Shown piece after piece: positions 11,371 through 14,779 of a stretch of DNA of 46,640 nucleotides (the stretch's first letter is position 1; every line of letters begins with the position of its first letter). Where the stretch lies: positions 1-46,640 of the forward strand of contig NZ_FNWU01000011.1 of assembly GCF_900108505.1 (NCBI RefSeq). Reading direction: 5' to 3'. Origin of the DNA: Halopenitus malekzadehii (GTDB lineage: Archaea; Halobacteriota; Halobacteria; Halobacteriales; Haloferacaceae). The translations under genes and the position numbers were made by a program. The notes below the pieces were generated by a model that saw only the letters and a list, made by a program, of their open reading frames with translations, searched no databases and was not told the origin of the DNA.

Positions 11371-12228
11371 TCAGTCGCCGCCGGCACCGGACCCAGCGTC
11401 GGCCACCGGTTCCGGGTCGGTCTCGGCGCTGTACGCCTCCGCGAGCCCGTCGAGCGCCTCGTGGTGCTCCGAGGCGTGCGGGACGGACAGCGGGGAGACC
11501 GACACGCGGCCCTCGACGATTGCCCGGCGGTCGGTCCCCTCGGGGTCGGGCACGTCGCCGGTGCGCATCCGGTCCCAGATCCGGTCGTGAAGCGTGATGT
11601 CGCCGGTGTCGGCGTCCCACTCGGCGTCCATCTCGTAGAGGGTCGAGGGCTCCGTGACCGCGATCGCGGCGCGCTCGCCCGGCAGCGGCCCCGACTCGCC
11701 GTCGGCCATCGGGGCGTTCACGTTGAGGTAGTCGGCGTGGTCGAAGACGCCGGCGTCGATCGCGTGATCGACGAGGTAGCGCGTCACGGCGGCCGCGTGC
11801 GCGAAGTGCTCCGGGTCGGGCTCGAGTTCCCACCAGTCGTCGCCGCCCGGCACGTACATCGAGGTGGCGATCGCGGGGACCTCGAAGAAGGCGGCCTCGA
11901 CGGCGGCCGAGACGGTGCCTGACCGGCCCAGGACGTACTCGCCGAGGTTCGCGCCCTTGTTACAGCCGGAGACGACGGCGTCGGCGTTCGGAACGAGCTC
12001 GCCCAGGCCGGCGACGACGCAGTCGGCCGGCGTGCCCTCGACGGCGTAGCCCAGGTCGTGGTCGTGGACGACGACGTCCTGGGAGATCGACCGCCCGACC
12101 GCGCTCTGGTCGGCGGCGGGGGCGACCGCAACCACGTCGTAGGCCGGGGTGAGGGCGTCGTACAGCGCGCGAAACCCGACGGTCTCGATCCCGTCGTCGT
12201 TCGTGAGAAGGATCCGATCGACGCTCAT
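11371..12228 (-). CDS. surE: SurE, 5'/3'-nucleotidase
   Basis: The 285-residue product begins with the SurE metal site ILLTNDDGIE, followed by VAPAADQSAVGRS, GTPADCVV and VVSGCNKGANLGEYVLGRSGTVSAA, in the family order. It is a metal-dependent phosphatase acting on nucleoside monophosphates. The frame is open seven codons further upstream, but ATG at 12228 places the metal motif near the N-terminus as usual. A CTTAAAA box at about 12249-12255 lies 25 bases upstream. The C-terminal 15 residues are a Gly/Ala/Asp tail with no recognised role. Confidence 0.93.
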   Translation of the reverse strand: MSVDRILLTNDDGIETVGFRALYDALTPAYDVVAVAPAADQSAVGRSISQDVVVHDHDLGYAVEGTPADCVVAGLGELVPNADAVVSGCNKGANLGEYVLGRSGTVSAAVEAAFFEVPAIATSMYVPGGDDWWELEPDPEHFAHAAAVTRYLVDHAIDAGVFDHADYLNVNAPMADGESGPLPGERAAIAVTEPSTLYEMDAEWDADTGDITLHDRIWDRMRTGDVPDPEGTDRRAIVEGRVSVSPLSVPHASEHHEALDGLAEAYSAETDPEPVADAGSGAGGD

Positions 12229-12314: not shown

Positions 12315-12761
12315 CTAGTTGGTTGGGGCGGTCTGTGAACCGAGCGTCGCGGATGAATCACCGTTGGCGGATCGCCAGTTTACGGAGACGGTTTCGCCGT
12401 CCCAGGTGCTACTATCACTACCTTTCCAAACATCATAGCTACTTCCCGCTGACACATCTCCGTCCCAACTCGTATCTCCGTTAAGTGTGATTCCGCCGGT
12501 CGCGTTGACGGTAACCGTGTCACTGCTGGCGTCGATCGTATCGCCGCCGGCGTGACTGATCGTCACGTTGTTTTCGTCGTTGAAGTCGAAGTTGAAACTC
12601 GCGGTCGGCTGGGTGTTCTGCAGGTCGTCGCCGAGGCCGAGGACGAACGTCCCGATGACGGCGGCCAGGATGACCGTAATCGCCACCATCAGGATCACGC
12701 CGATCACCGGCGAGACCGCTCTATCCTCCGTAAACAGGGTCTTGAGGTCGTGTAGGTTCAT
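12315..12761 (-). CDS. Type IV pilin, PilA-like (first of three paralogues)
   Basis: The 148-residue product has a short positively and negatively charged leader ending EDRAVSPVIGVILMVAIT, the haloarchaeal Pilin_N domain. A prepilin peptidase would cut between Arg and Ala, leaving the hydrophobic helix to build the pilus core. The mature part is a Thr/Ser/Asp/Gly-rich beta domain ending TVNWRSANGDSS-like and LGSQTAP, a C-terminal motif shared by all three paralogues. It is preceded by a conserved promoter element and a structured leader of about 69 bases. No pilus ATPase or platform gene is nearby. Confidence 0.9.
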   Translation of the reverse strand: MNLHDLKTLFTEDRAVSPVIGVILMVAITVILAAVIGTFVLGLGDDLQNTQPTASFNFDFNDENNVTISHAGGDTIDASSDTVTVNATGGITLNGDTSWDGDVSAGSSYDVWKGSDSSTWDGETVSVNWRSANGDSSATLGSQTAPTN

Positions 12762-12830
12762 TGGTGTATGCGCAGTCCTGGGACTCGTACGCCGACCGAT
12801 CGTCGATCGGGTCCCTCCTCCCAGCGGCTG
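12762..12830 (-). promoter_or_regulatory. Conserved structured leader of pilin gene 1
   Basis: Transcription is expected near 12830, about 27 bases after the TATA box. The leader can fold into an outer stem, TCCCAG 12819-12824 with CTGGGA 12778-12783. This encloses an inner hairpin, CCGATCG 12796-12802 with CGATCGG 12804-12810. The outer stem closes 16 bases before the start codon. The same nested fold is possible in the leaders of pilin genes 2 and 3. Confidence 0.5.
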
Positions 12831-12853
12831 ACGATCATAGATTAATTCTAGAA

Positions 12854-12880
12854 GTATATAAAAACACGCTTCAAAATATC
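12854..12880 (-). promoter_or_regulatory. Shared pilin promoter element, copy 1
   Basis: On the plus strand this reads GTATATAAAAACACGCTTCA and continues AAATATC. It consists of a TATA box with an upstream GCTTCAAA block. Closely matching copies lie at 13589-13615 and 14673-14699, each 91-96 bases before a pilin start codon. Confidence 0.6.
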
Positions 12881-13002
12881 AAAATTGGTAGCGAGAAGGC
12901 CGCTATCCCGGGTATGCCGACAGTTAGCGTTGTTCGACTCGACCGGGATTCGCGTCGGGAGCGATATAAAAACGACGGTCGGACGCGGGATCGACGATCG
13001 CG

Positions 13003-13500
13003 TTAGGGCGCCGTCTGCGAGGCGAGCGTCGCCGACGAATCGCCGTTGGCGGACTGCCAGTTCACGGTGACCGTTTCGCCGTTCCAGTATCCTTCTGCAT
13101 CGTTATCGTTAGTAGTTCCATTATAAACGTACAGCGTTTCACTGTCTCCGGCACCGATCTCCTCATTCCAGTCGAACGGAGCCTCGGACGGCGCTTCATC
13201 GCTCGAGTCGTTCAGTACCTTGTCACCAGTTACCGCCACGGTTACCTGATCGCTACTGGAGATAACGTCACCGCCACCGTGACTGATCGTGACCGACTCC
13301 GGCGCTGATCCGTTCGCGTTGAAGTTCATATTGAAGCTTGCGGTCGGTTGGTTGTTCTGTAGGTCGTCGCCCAGCCCGAGCACGAACGTGCCGATGACGG
13401 CCGCCAGAATGACCGTGATCGCCACCATCAGGATCACGCCGATCACTGGCGAGACCGCTCGATCGTCCGTAAACAGGGTTTTGATGTCGTGAAGTTGCAT
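13003..13500 (-). CDS. Type IV pilin, PilA-like (second paralogue)
   Basis: The 165-residue product begins MQLHDIKTLFTDDRAVSPVIG and shares its hydrophobic N-terminal helix almost residue for residue with the other two pilins. The next LGLGDDLQNNQPTASFN stretch is also shared. The body diverges and is longer than in paralogue 1 (GDKVLNDSSDEAPSEAPFDWNEE region), then ends in the common VNWQSANGDSSATLASQTAP motif. Cleavage is expected between Arg and Ala of DRAVSP. The gene lies 241 bases upstream of paralogue 1 and has its own promoter and leader, so the two are separate transcription units rather than one operon. Confidence 0.9.
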   Translation of the reverse strand: MQLHDIKTLFTDDRAVSPVIGVILMVAITVILAAVIGTFVLGLGDDLQNNQPTASFNMNFNANGSAPESVTISHGGGDVISSSDQVTVAVTGDKVLNDSSDEAPSEAPFDWNEEIGAGDSETLYVYNGTTNDNDAEGYWNGETVTVNWQSANGDSSATLASQTAP

Positions 13501-13565
13501 TGTGAAGAATCAGTCCTGGGACGATCCACCGATCGATTCGATCGGTGGATTCCGCCCAACATCTG
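13501..13565 (-). promoter_or_regulatory. Conserved structured leader of pilin gene 2
   Basis: The inner hairpin is the strongest of the three: ATCCACCGATCGA (13524-13536) and TCGATCGGTGGAT (13538-13550) are perfect inverted 13-mers separated by one base. It is enclosed by an outer stem, CTGGG 13516-13520 with CCCAA 13555-13559 (one G-U pair in RNA). The outer stem closes 15 bases before the start codon. Confidence 0.55.
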
Positions 13566-13588
13566 ACAACAAAACCTACGTGCTCAAC

Positions 13589-13615
13589 GTATATAAACAA
13601 CAGCTTCAAAACAAC
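13589..13615 (-). promoter_or_regulatory. Shared pilin promoter element, copy 2
   Basis: The plus strand reads GTATATAAACAACAGCTTCA then AAACAAC. It matches copies 1 and 3 in the TATA box and the GCTTCAAA block and lies about 92 bases before the pilin 2 start codon. Confidence 0.6.
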
Positions 13616-13743
13616 CGCGATCGTGTGTGTGAGGCCCTCTCTATGCTGTTTGCGGGTGGTTGGCATCCAACGGTAAGGATGGCGATCGTGGTCGACGCCC
13701 CTCCACCCAACCATTAAGCCGATCGTCGGAGACGAGTCGATCG

Positions 13744-13977
13744 ATGACGTCCCAGTCCCCGCCGTCCCTCCCGCGAAGCTGGACCGCCGCCGTGATCATC
13801 CTCGGCACCCTGATCCTCGGCTATTCGGTGATCATCGCCGGGCAGATCCTGCTCGGCGTCATTCCGGTACTCCTGCTCGTCCTGTTGTATCTTCTCTGGC
13901 GGTTCGTCGTCGCCGTCGAGTCGATCGCCGACGCCCAACAGCGACTCGCCGCACGCCGAGAGCGACGGGAGCGATAA
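13744..13977 (+). CDS. Small two-helix membrane protein of unknown function
   Basis: The 77-residue product has two hydrophobic helices at about residues 13-32 and 34-53 (AAVIILGTLILGYSVIIAG; IPVLLLVLLYLLWRFVVAV). These are followed by an amphipathic, Arg-rich C-terminal helix (IADAQQRLAARRERRER) that would face the cytoplasm. ATG 13744 is preferred over an upstream in-frame start because ATTAAG about 30 bases before it looks like a TATA box. It lies opposite in direction to the pilin genes, between paralogues 2 and 3. I do not recognise the family, and a pilus-related role is only suggested by position. Confidence 0.65.
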   Translation: MTSQSPPSLPRSWTAAVIILGTLILGYSVIIAGQILLGVIPVLLLVLLYLLWRFVVAVESIADAQQRLAARRERRER

Positions 13978-14087
13978 TTGATCGACGACGCGTGATCCAG
14001 CGTGTGTGACACCGGAACCGTTTCCGGTTGGGTGTACGGTAGTCGCGAAACGACGACGGCTCGCCTGAAAAAAGCCGTTGAACTCGG

Positions 14088-14585
14088 TTATACCGTCGGT
14101 GCGTCCTGGGAGCCGAGCTGGGCGGAGGAGCTCCCGTCGGCAGATTCCCAGTTCACCGAGACGGTCTCGCCGTTCCAGGTGCTCCCAGAATCACTCTCGT
14201 TGTGCAGGTAGAACGTCTGGCTGCTCCCGGCACTCAGACTGTCGCTGTACGTCCACGTGAACGGGGAACTTTCATTACCGCCATCCGATGAATTTCCAAT
14301 ATCTGCACCACCAGTAACGGCGACCGTCACCGTGTCTTCACTGCTGATGCTGTCGCCGCCGCCGTGGGAGATTGTAACGCTGTCGTTTCCGCTGTCGTTA
14401 GTCTCGAAGTCGAAGTTGAAACTTGCGGTCGGCTGGGTGTTCTGCAGGTCGTCGCCCAGCCCGAGCACGAACGTGCCGATGACGGCCGCCAGAATGACCG
14501 TGATCGCCACCATCAGGATCACGCCGATCACCGGTGAAACCGCTCTATCCTCCGTGAACAGGTTCTTGAGGTCGTGTAGCTTCAT
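14088..14585 (-). CDS. Type IV pilin, PilA-like (third paralogue)
   Basis: The 165-residue product starts MKLHDLKNLFTEDRAVSPVIG, again with the shared Pilin_N helix and LGLGDDLQNTQPTASFNFDF continuation. The central part (NDSGNDSVTISHGGGDSISSED, then SSPFTWTYSDSLSAGSS) is closest in pattern to paralogue 2. The C-terminus ends WESADGSSSAQLGSQDAP, the family tail. An in-frame extension to 14672 exists, but ATG 14585 is the start equivalent to the paralogues and follows the conserved leader at the conserved distance. Cleavage is expected at DR/AVSP. Confidence 0.9.
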   Translation of the reverse strand: MKLHDLKNLFTEDRAVSPVIGVILMVAITVILAAVIGTFVLGLGDDLQNTQPTASFNFDFETNDSGNDSVTISHGGGDSISSEDTVTVAVTGGADIGNSSDGGNESSPFTWTYSDSLSAGSSQTFYLHNESDSGSTWNGETVSVNWESADGSSSAQLGSQDAPTV

Positions 14586-14649
14586 ATGTGCGTGTGTCCC
14601 CAACTGGGTCGTATCCCGATCGGTTCGATCGATTCCCGCCCAGCGACTG
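14586..14649 (-). promoter_or_regulatory. Conserved structured leader of pilin gene 3
   Basis: The outer stem is CTGGG 14604-14608 with CCCAG 14639-14643. The inner hairpin is shorter, CGATC 14617-14621 with GATCG 14627-14631. The outer stem closes 18 bases before the start codon, and the CTGACGATC block near the expected transcript start matches the pilin 1 leader. Confidence 0.5.
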
Positions 14650-14672
14650 ACGATCGGAGAAAACGGGTACAC

Positions 14673-14699
14673 CTATATAAAACATCGCTTGAAAGTATC
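14673..14699 (-). promoter_or_regulatory. Shared pilin promoter element, copy 3
   Basis: The plus strand reads CTATATAAAACATCGCTTGA then AAGTATC. It shares the TATA box and the GCTT-AAA block with copies 1 and 2 and lies about 91 bases before the pilin 3 start codon. Confidence 0.6.
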
Positions 14700-14779
14700 G
14701 GACTTGATAATTAAATGACGAATACGATCGCCGACCCCGTTCCCCCAAAAACACGCGCTCGATCGGGAGTGGACCGCCG

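Follow-up and report, generated by a model that had tools for sequence, protein, structure and literature searches.

A tandem array of pilin genes

The window analysed here, a stretch of 46,640 nucleotides, is one contig of the 3.1-Mb genome of Halopenitus malekzadehii (G000), which we compared with those of two congeners, G011 and G037. Three tandem paralogs encoding PilA-type pilins lie on its minus strand, and their products score 82.9-89.7 bits against a Pilin_N (PF07790) cut-off of 25.2:

12315..12761, minus strand: pilin gene 1, PilA type, 148 aa (Pilin_N PF07790, E=2.3e-25)
13003..13500, minus strand: pilin gene 2, PilA type, 165 aa (Pilin_N PF07790, E=3e-23)
14088..14585, minus strand: pilin gene 3, PilA type, 165 aa (Pilin_N PF07790, E=1e-24)

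Gene 1 has orthologs in both G011 and G037. Between genes 3 and 2, the opposite strand encodes a predicted membrane protein of 77 aa with no Pfam match (13744-13977, plus strand), and a gap of similar size separates two pilin genes in the congeners as well. A preliminary description of this DNA proposed that the three pilin genes share a promoter block and a folded leader. Apart from small corrections this was confirmed, and the two elements turn out to be separate.

A CsmR-type box in pilin promoters

The following promoter elements were located:

12877..12890, minus strand: CsmR-type box of gene 1, TACCAATTTTGATA, matching 9/10 of the consensus TATCA-N4-TGATA
12868..12876, minus strand: TTTTGAAGC block between box and TATA box of gene 1, read from the sequence (previously given as GCTTCAAA on the plus strand)
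12857..12862, minus strand: TATA box TTTATA of gene 1, 14 nt after the box (pattern match)
13592..13611, minus strand: TTTTGAAGC and TATA box of gene 2 (pattern match), with no CsmR-type box upstream (best 6/10)
14696..14709, minus strand: CsmR-type box of gene 3, TATCAAGTCCGATA, matching 9/10 of the consensus
14676..14681, minus strand: TATA box TTTATA of gene 3, 14 nt after the box (pattern match)

When the promoters of the three genes and their orthologs were aligned, an inverted repeat, TATC-N6-GATA, emerged upstream of the TATA box and GCTTCAAA. The resulting layout at genes 1 and 3 is TATCA-N4-TGATA, then 14 nt, then TTTATA; an operator was also looked for upstream of TTTTGAAGC and the TATA box of gene 2, where the best match at that place reached only 6/10. 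The preliminary description thus saw only the flank of the box, namely the block on its TATA side. That block does accompany the TATA box at all three genes, but its sequence is not identical throughout, gene 3 carrying GCTTGAAA instead of GCTTCAAA; likewise, the common spacing between TATA box and ATG stands, with a distance of 89-94 nt in place of the 91-96 nt first given.

A search with TATCAANTTCGATANTTTGAAGC, allowing at most 3 mismatches, returned seven sites in the three genomes of the genus, all seven before pilin genes, against no control site. Among 243 haloarchaeal pilin upstream regions, 53 contained a box matching at least 9/10 positions, compared with a mean of 1.3 and a maximum of 8 for 60 shuffled consensuses; in this count a clear box was mostly missing from the pilins of Haloferax. 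The gap between box and TATA box was 13-16 nt in 44 of 48 boxed pilin upstream regions. In the window genome, box plus TATA box with at most 2 mismatches occurs at four sites only: pilin gene 1, pilin gene 3, the archaellin operon and a membrane protein gene divergent from csmR. A broader pattern search across the family also matched non-pilin genes, of which MCP-like transducers, cetZ and an archaellin gene are plausible CsmR targets and uvrC is likely a chance match.

CsmR, a small winged-helix protein, regulates the archaellum regulon. ChIP-seq in Haloferax volcanii placed TATCA(N4)TGATA beside BRE/TATA within a motif of ~34 bp (PLoS Genet 2026, PMC13286277), and the elements in the window (14+14+6) also add up to 34, so that both box sequence and spacing match the ChIP motif. 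As in H. volcanii, the window genome has a CsmR ortholog and a boxed archaellin operon. The published targets comprise archaellum, chemotaxis and cell-shape genes; in contrast, the pilin promoters in the window are themselves boxed.

Nested hairpins in the leaders of the genus

Downstream of the TATA boxes, the three leaders contain the following elements:

12828..12832, minus strand: GTCAG, predicted transcript start region of gene 1, 22 nt after TTTATATA, a spacing fixed in the leaders of the genus
12773..12830, minus strand: 5'-terminal nested hairpin of gene 1 (outer CTGGGA/TCCCAG plus CAG/CTG, with an inner hairpin), from folding and kept in orthologs
13510..13567, minus strand: GTCAG start region and 5'-terminal nested hairpin of gene 2, the strongest of the three, from folding
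14604..14651, minus strand: GTCAG start region and 5'-terminal nested hairpin of gene 3 (outer CTGGG/CCCAG, inner CGATCG), from folding

Within the genus, those pilin leaders of the cluster that carry a promoter have GTCAG exactly 22 nt after TTTATATA, which is where an archaeal transcript start is expected relative to the promoter; with the start thus predicted from the TATA box, the mRNA would begin with the hairpin. The preliminary description regarded transcript starts downstream of the hairpins as incompatible with its reading, and the predicted starts lie upstream of them. The outer stems it listed are exactly in place: CTGGGA/TCCCAG at gene 1 (12778-12783/12819-12824), CTGGG/CCCAA at gene 2 (13516-13520/13555-13559, with one G.U in the RNA) and CTGGG/CCCAG at gene 3 (14604-14608/14639-14643). 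The distance to the start codon was recovered as well, and the folding program returned the nested fold for all three leaders.

Folding energies, computed at 37 C with standard parameters that do not represent the high-salt haloarchaeal cytoplasm, gave z scores against dinucleotide shuffles of -1.1 for gene 1, -4.95 for gene 2 and -1.9 for gene 3, of which only that of gene 2 is individually significant; the case for the leader therefore rests on comparison and not on energy. Furthermore, CGATCG occurs 158 times in the 46.6-kb window, so the inner GATCG palindrome alone says little. The comparison within the genus is more telling. CTGGGA/TCCCAG is unchanged in the gene 1 orthologs of G011 and G037, whose inner hairpin has a different sequence (CGATCG type versus GGCC..GGTCC type), and one paralog in the genus carries GCCGG/CCGGC in place of CTGGG/CCCAG, a U-A pair having changed to C-G on both sides. 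The number of pairs expected between the first 20 nt after the predicted start and the region before the AUG is 11.9, 13.1 and 11.7 for genes 1, 2 and 3, respectively. A covariance model of the genus leader, run against 170 genomes of the family, gave strong matches in the genus only, the others (E 0.006-0.09 per genome) being treated as chance; the letters CTGGG/CCCAG are thus a local, genus-specific invention.

A stem anchored to predicted transcript start and AUG across haloarchaea

Boxed pilin leaders were then chosen by promoter only (box plus TATA box), without reference to structure, which yielded 37 leaders with predicted lengths of 48-114 nt. They were split by shared 6-mers, not by tree, into 20 clusters with no shared sequence between clusters. 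Across these clusters, 10.7 pairs are expected to link the 20 nt at the 5' end with positions -32..-9, as against 3.9 in dinucleotide-shuffled leaders (p = 2.9e-6); the 9 nt directly preceding the AUG are 88% unpaired, as against 51% (p = 9.5e-7). The signal is tied to the predicted start: when the 5' end was moved upstream by 10, 20, 30 or 40 nt, the pairs fell to 6.2, 1.9, 2.1 and 1.5, and the region upstream of the promoter gave 2.2 in the same test. At least 9.5 pairs were found in 75% of the boxed clusters and 10% of the controls, and the anchored stem was absent from the upstream regions of 270 non-pilin genes (4.0 pairs versus 4.2 shuffled).

About 50 clusters of box-negative pilin genes with a TATA box in range agreed (9.65 pairs versus 3.97 in TATA-matched controls, p = 2e-5; 140 of 206 box-negative pilin upstream regions, having no TATA box in range, were left out). 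When each part of the leader was shuffled separately, so that the A/C-rich tail was kept, the 69 clusters still gave 9.9 pairs against 4.0 (p = 9e-11), with 38 of the 69 individually at p ≤ 0.05. Folding from just after the TATA box, with no start assumed, placed the main peak of the 5' edge of the outer helix 28-35 nt after the TATA box (28 of 69 clusters) and its 3' edge at a median of 9 nt before the AUG. An energy test on all pilin upstream regions reached only p = 0.01, because that sample mixed in operon-internal genes and wrong leader ends. The shape of the stem is thus general and its letters genus-specific: 69 sequence-unrelated pilin leaders share the same anchored shape. We also considered reading the leaders as Shine-Dalgarno carriers and rejected it; GGAGG is not enriched (8 versus 7.7 expected) and GGGAG only weakly so (p = 0.05).

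Boxed archaellin genes likewise carry a short 5'-terminal hairpin, with 9 of 9 deviating in the same direction (p = 0.002), and their stems change pairwise between species (GTCTGC/GCAGAC and GTCTGT/ACAGAC). The stem sequence in these leaders (L162-L171, L185, L136, L137) is species-specific, and the spacer before the AUG is open; the boxed archaellin gene of the window genome (L174) has its ATG near 11601 on the minus strand. In contrast, the boxed cheY and the boxed membrane protein gene adjoining csmR begin 29-35 nt downstream of the TATA box and look leaderless. The leader therefore goes with filament subunits and not with the box.

A proposed two-layer expression cassette

We propose, with a probability of about 60%, that the pilin unit is a two-layer expression cassette composed of a CsmR-type DNA operator and a 5'-terminal RNA hairpin. 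Where the preliminary description left open a functional RNA or a DNA-binding site, both would be present at separate positions, with an operator in the DNA before the TATA box and an RNA fold from the predicted transcript start. At the DNA level, CsmR would bind the operator 14 nt upstream of the TATA box at genes 1 and 3, beside the basal transcription factors, and CsmR or a close homolog would most likely set transcription of these two genes jointly with the archaellum. At the RNA level, transcription would begin at the conserved GTCAG and place the hairpin at the very 5' end of the mRNA; its outer stem would pair the ~20 nt at the 5' terminus with the segment preceding the start codon, so that the A/C-rich spacer of ~9 nt and the AUG stay unpaired. 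Because the two other kinds of boxed gene look leaderless, we assign the stem to the abundant mRNAs of filament subunits, pilins and archaellins, whose lifetime and/or translation it may govern. Control of pilin dosage, as first suggested, is plausible on this inference. The missing box of gene 2, the restriction of the window leader family to one genus, the non-significant covariation, the scarcity of clear boxes among Haloferax pilins and the response of H. volcanii to csmR deletion (below) count against the cassette.

The pilA4-pilA3 operon of H. volcanii, which likewise encodes adhesion pilins, has one mapped start and a 5'-UTR of >100 nt, described as 'rare' for haloarchaea, and the accessible parts of that report describe neither structure nor conservation of the UTR (PMC6490895). 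In the hp transcript, a haloarchaeal 5'-UTR hairpin sets translation efficiency, and its stem, when tested by mutation, lowered translation; it differs from the pilin leaders in being weaker (-7.4 kcal/mol) and in having no pilin or conservation reported in the portion available to us (PMC2636863). By analogy, the pilin stem might fit a brake better than a booster.

Stem-loops of the ompA type at the 5' end protect bacterial mRNAs against bacterial enzymes; the one in ompA, like the pilin stem, lies close to the 5' terminus of a message for an abundant surface protein, although the haloarchaeal nucleases would differ and no relation is implied. We tentatively suggest that a 5' stem closing the whole leader and ending ~9 nt before the AUG could mark the mRNAs of type IV filament subunits (pilins and archaellins) throughout Halobacteria, as a signature conserved in shape but free of fixed sequence; by bringing the 5' end beside the start codon, it might let a leadered mRNA act like a leaderless one and protect its 5' end. 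We found no description of structured pilin leaders in archaea in the open-access literature. Such a long, structured and class-wide leader on filament subunits is unexpected, given that haloarchaeal mRNAs are mostly leaderless, and RNA family searches based on sequence would miss it, because conservation is confined to its shape and to its fixed position at transcript start and AUG.

Covariation, RNA families and the possibility of a switch

The preliminary description proposed covariation as a check on the fold. In Haloplanus, 97.8% of the cells in 20 leaders are paired, against 23-49% with slid partners, but only 1 of 18 pairs is compensatory and the covariation score was reached by 113 of 500 shuffles and is not significant; within a genus the leaders are nearly invariant, which renders covariation uninformative. 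RNAalifold on the pilin groups of Haloplanus and Haloferax met the same excess of conservation, and some groups were tails of upstream pilin genes. It is the shape argument across genera, where the test succeeds, that carries the weight.

The leader could instead be a regulated switch whose hairpin is opened or closed by a protein, a metabolite, an sRNA or temperature and so sets pilin synthesis, as in the S15 leader of Halobacteria; we consider this unlikely, though it is the strongest of the alternatives. It would account for the near-invariance of the Haloplanus leader across paralogs and species beside diverged flanks (79% versus 55-56% identity). In the ~60-nt Haloplanus leader (alignment A4), two competing inner pairings, GGGA..TCCC and GGAGC..GCTCC, exclude each other, and the leader is possibly bistable. 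Haloarchaeal UTR structure can also mediate growth-phase control (PMC2636863). However, a shared ligand site is improbable given that no sequence is common across genera, and the spacer before the AUG is open in the predicted fold, leaving no obvious OFF state. Nothing was found in support of the earlier suggestion of pilin switching. The S15-Halobacteria ribosomal protein leader (Rfam RF03143) is likewise a haloarchaeal cis-regulatory mRNA leader, but it forms one family conserved in sequence and structure, whereas the pilin leaders share shape and position only and do not match RF03143; indeed, no Rfam family matched above the gathering threshold in the leaders of the window or of 13 related loci. 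The only Rfam candidate in the window, a weak miRNA match inside coding sequence, was discarded.

CsmR in a congener without archaella

The CsmR ortholog was picked by its position beside archaellins and a KaiC-like gene, and its identity was confirmed in Haloferax: there the match directly precedes two archaellin genes, in agreement with the published position of hvo_1209. Orthologs of csmR with 70-72% identity are present in the window genome and both congeners:

G000:C27:349331-349660, strand not given: csmR of the window genome, 71% identity to the query ortholog, KaiC-like gene adjoining

G011 has no archaellin and no ArlCE above the cut-off, yet it retains csmR (L184, C1:2047555) with its KaiC-like neighbour. 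This runs contrary to the published claim that, in Halobacteria, csmR is always accompanied by archaellins (PMC13286277). In G011, box plus TATA box with no more than 2 mismatches turned up at two pilin promoters and nowhere else. The box and the retention of csmR suggest that pilins may be direct CsmR targets. Deletion of csmR in H. volcanii raised, and did not lower, target and pilin transcripts, and the authors read the pilin induction as compensation (PMC13286277).

Somewhat less probable than a switch is that a regulator other than CsmR, such as a distant CsmR-like winged-helix protein, reads the pilin box and that pilins and archaella are controlled separately. Each genome encodes several distant homologs (24-36% identity), and the TTTGAAGC part, which lies outside the published core motif, is conserved and kept by gene 2 without the box. 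The box sequence and spacing equal to the ChIP motif, together with the true csmR ortholog beside the KaiC-like gene in G011, argue against such a regulator and for CsmR. Only a few proteins are known to regulate archaeal adhesion pilins, and a single regulator acting on archaellin and pilin promoters would provide a testable link between swimming and sticking, for which G011, having kept csmR and the pilin boxes, is a natural experiment.

Chance and DNA-level explanations

The leaders might have no function, being common to paralogs through recent duplication or gene conversion, with chance hairpins in GC-rich, GATC-rich DNA. The tandem arrangement of the paralogs, the abundance of CGATCG and the two leaders lacking individual significance are what this explanation would predict, but it does not account for the 69 unrelated leaders whose common anchored shape exceeds local shuffles, for the non-pilin upstream regions without it or for the persistence of the outer stem in orthologs that differ in the inner sequence, and we regard it as very improbable. 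Least probable of all is that the inverted repeat acts as DNA, as a cruciform or a further operator close to where transcription starts, for although CGATCG and CTGGG/CCCAG are palindromic and the element sits at the promoter, the paired segments are anchored to predicted start and AUG with sequences unrelated between clusters, where an operator should keep its sequence, and G.U pairs are common in the stems.

Additional observations

The gene divergent from csmR encodes a membrane protein of 93 aa with no Pfam match and stands under its own CsmR-type box (L182 1058-1339, L183, L185, also L136/L137). The archaellum-less G011 has no such gene at the position adjoining csmR, which makes this protein a candidate archaellum-associated protein. 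In two genomes of genus g15, a CetZ-type gene is preceded at a distance of ~200 nt by a CsmR-like box (L132, L133). Finally, a fourth pilin gene of the window genome (L003, G000:C39:20374) has a different leader, with no box (6/10) and a strong 5'-terminal stem of 14.6 expected pairs.
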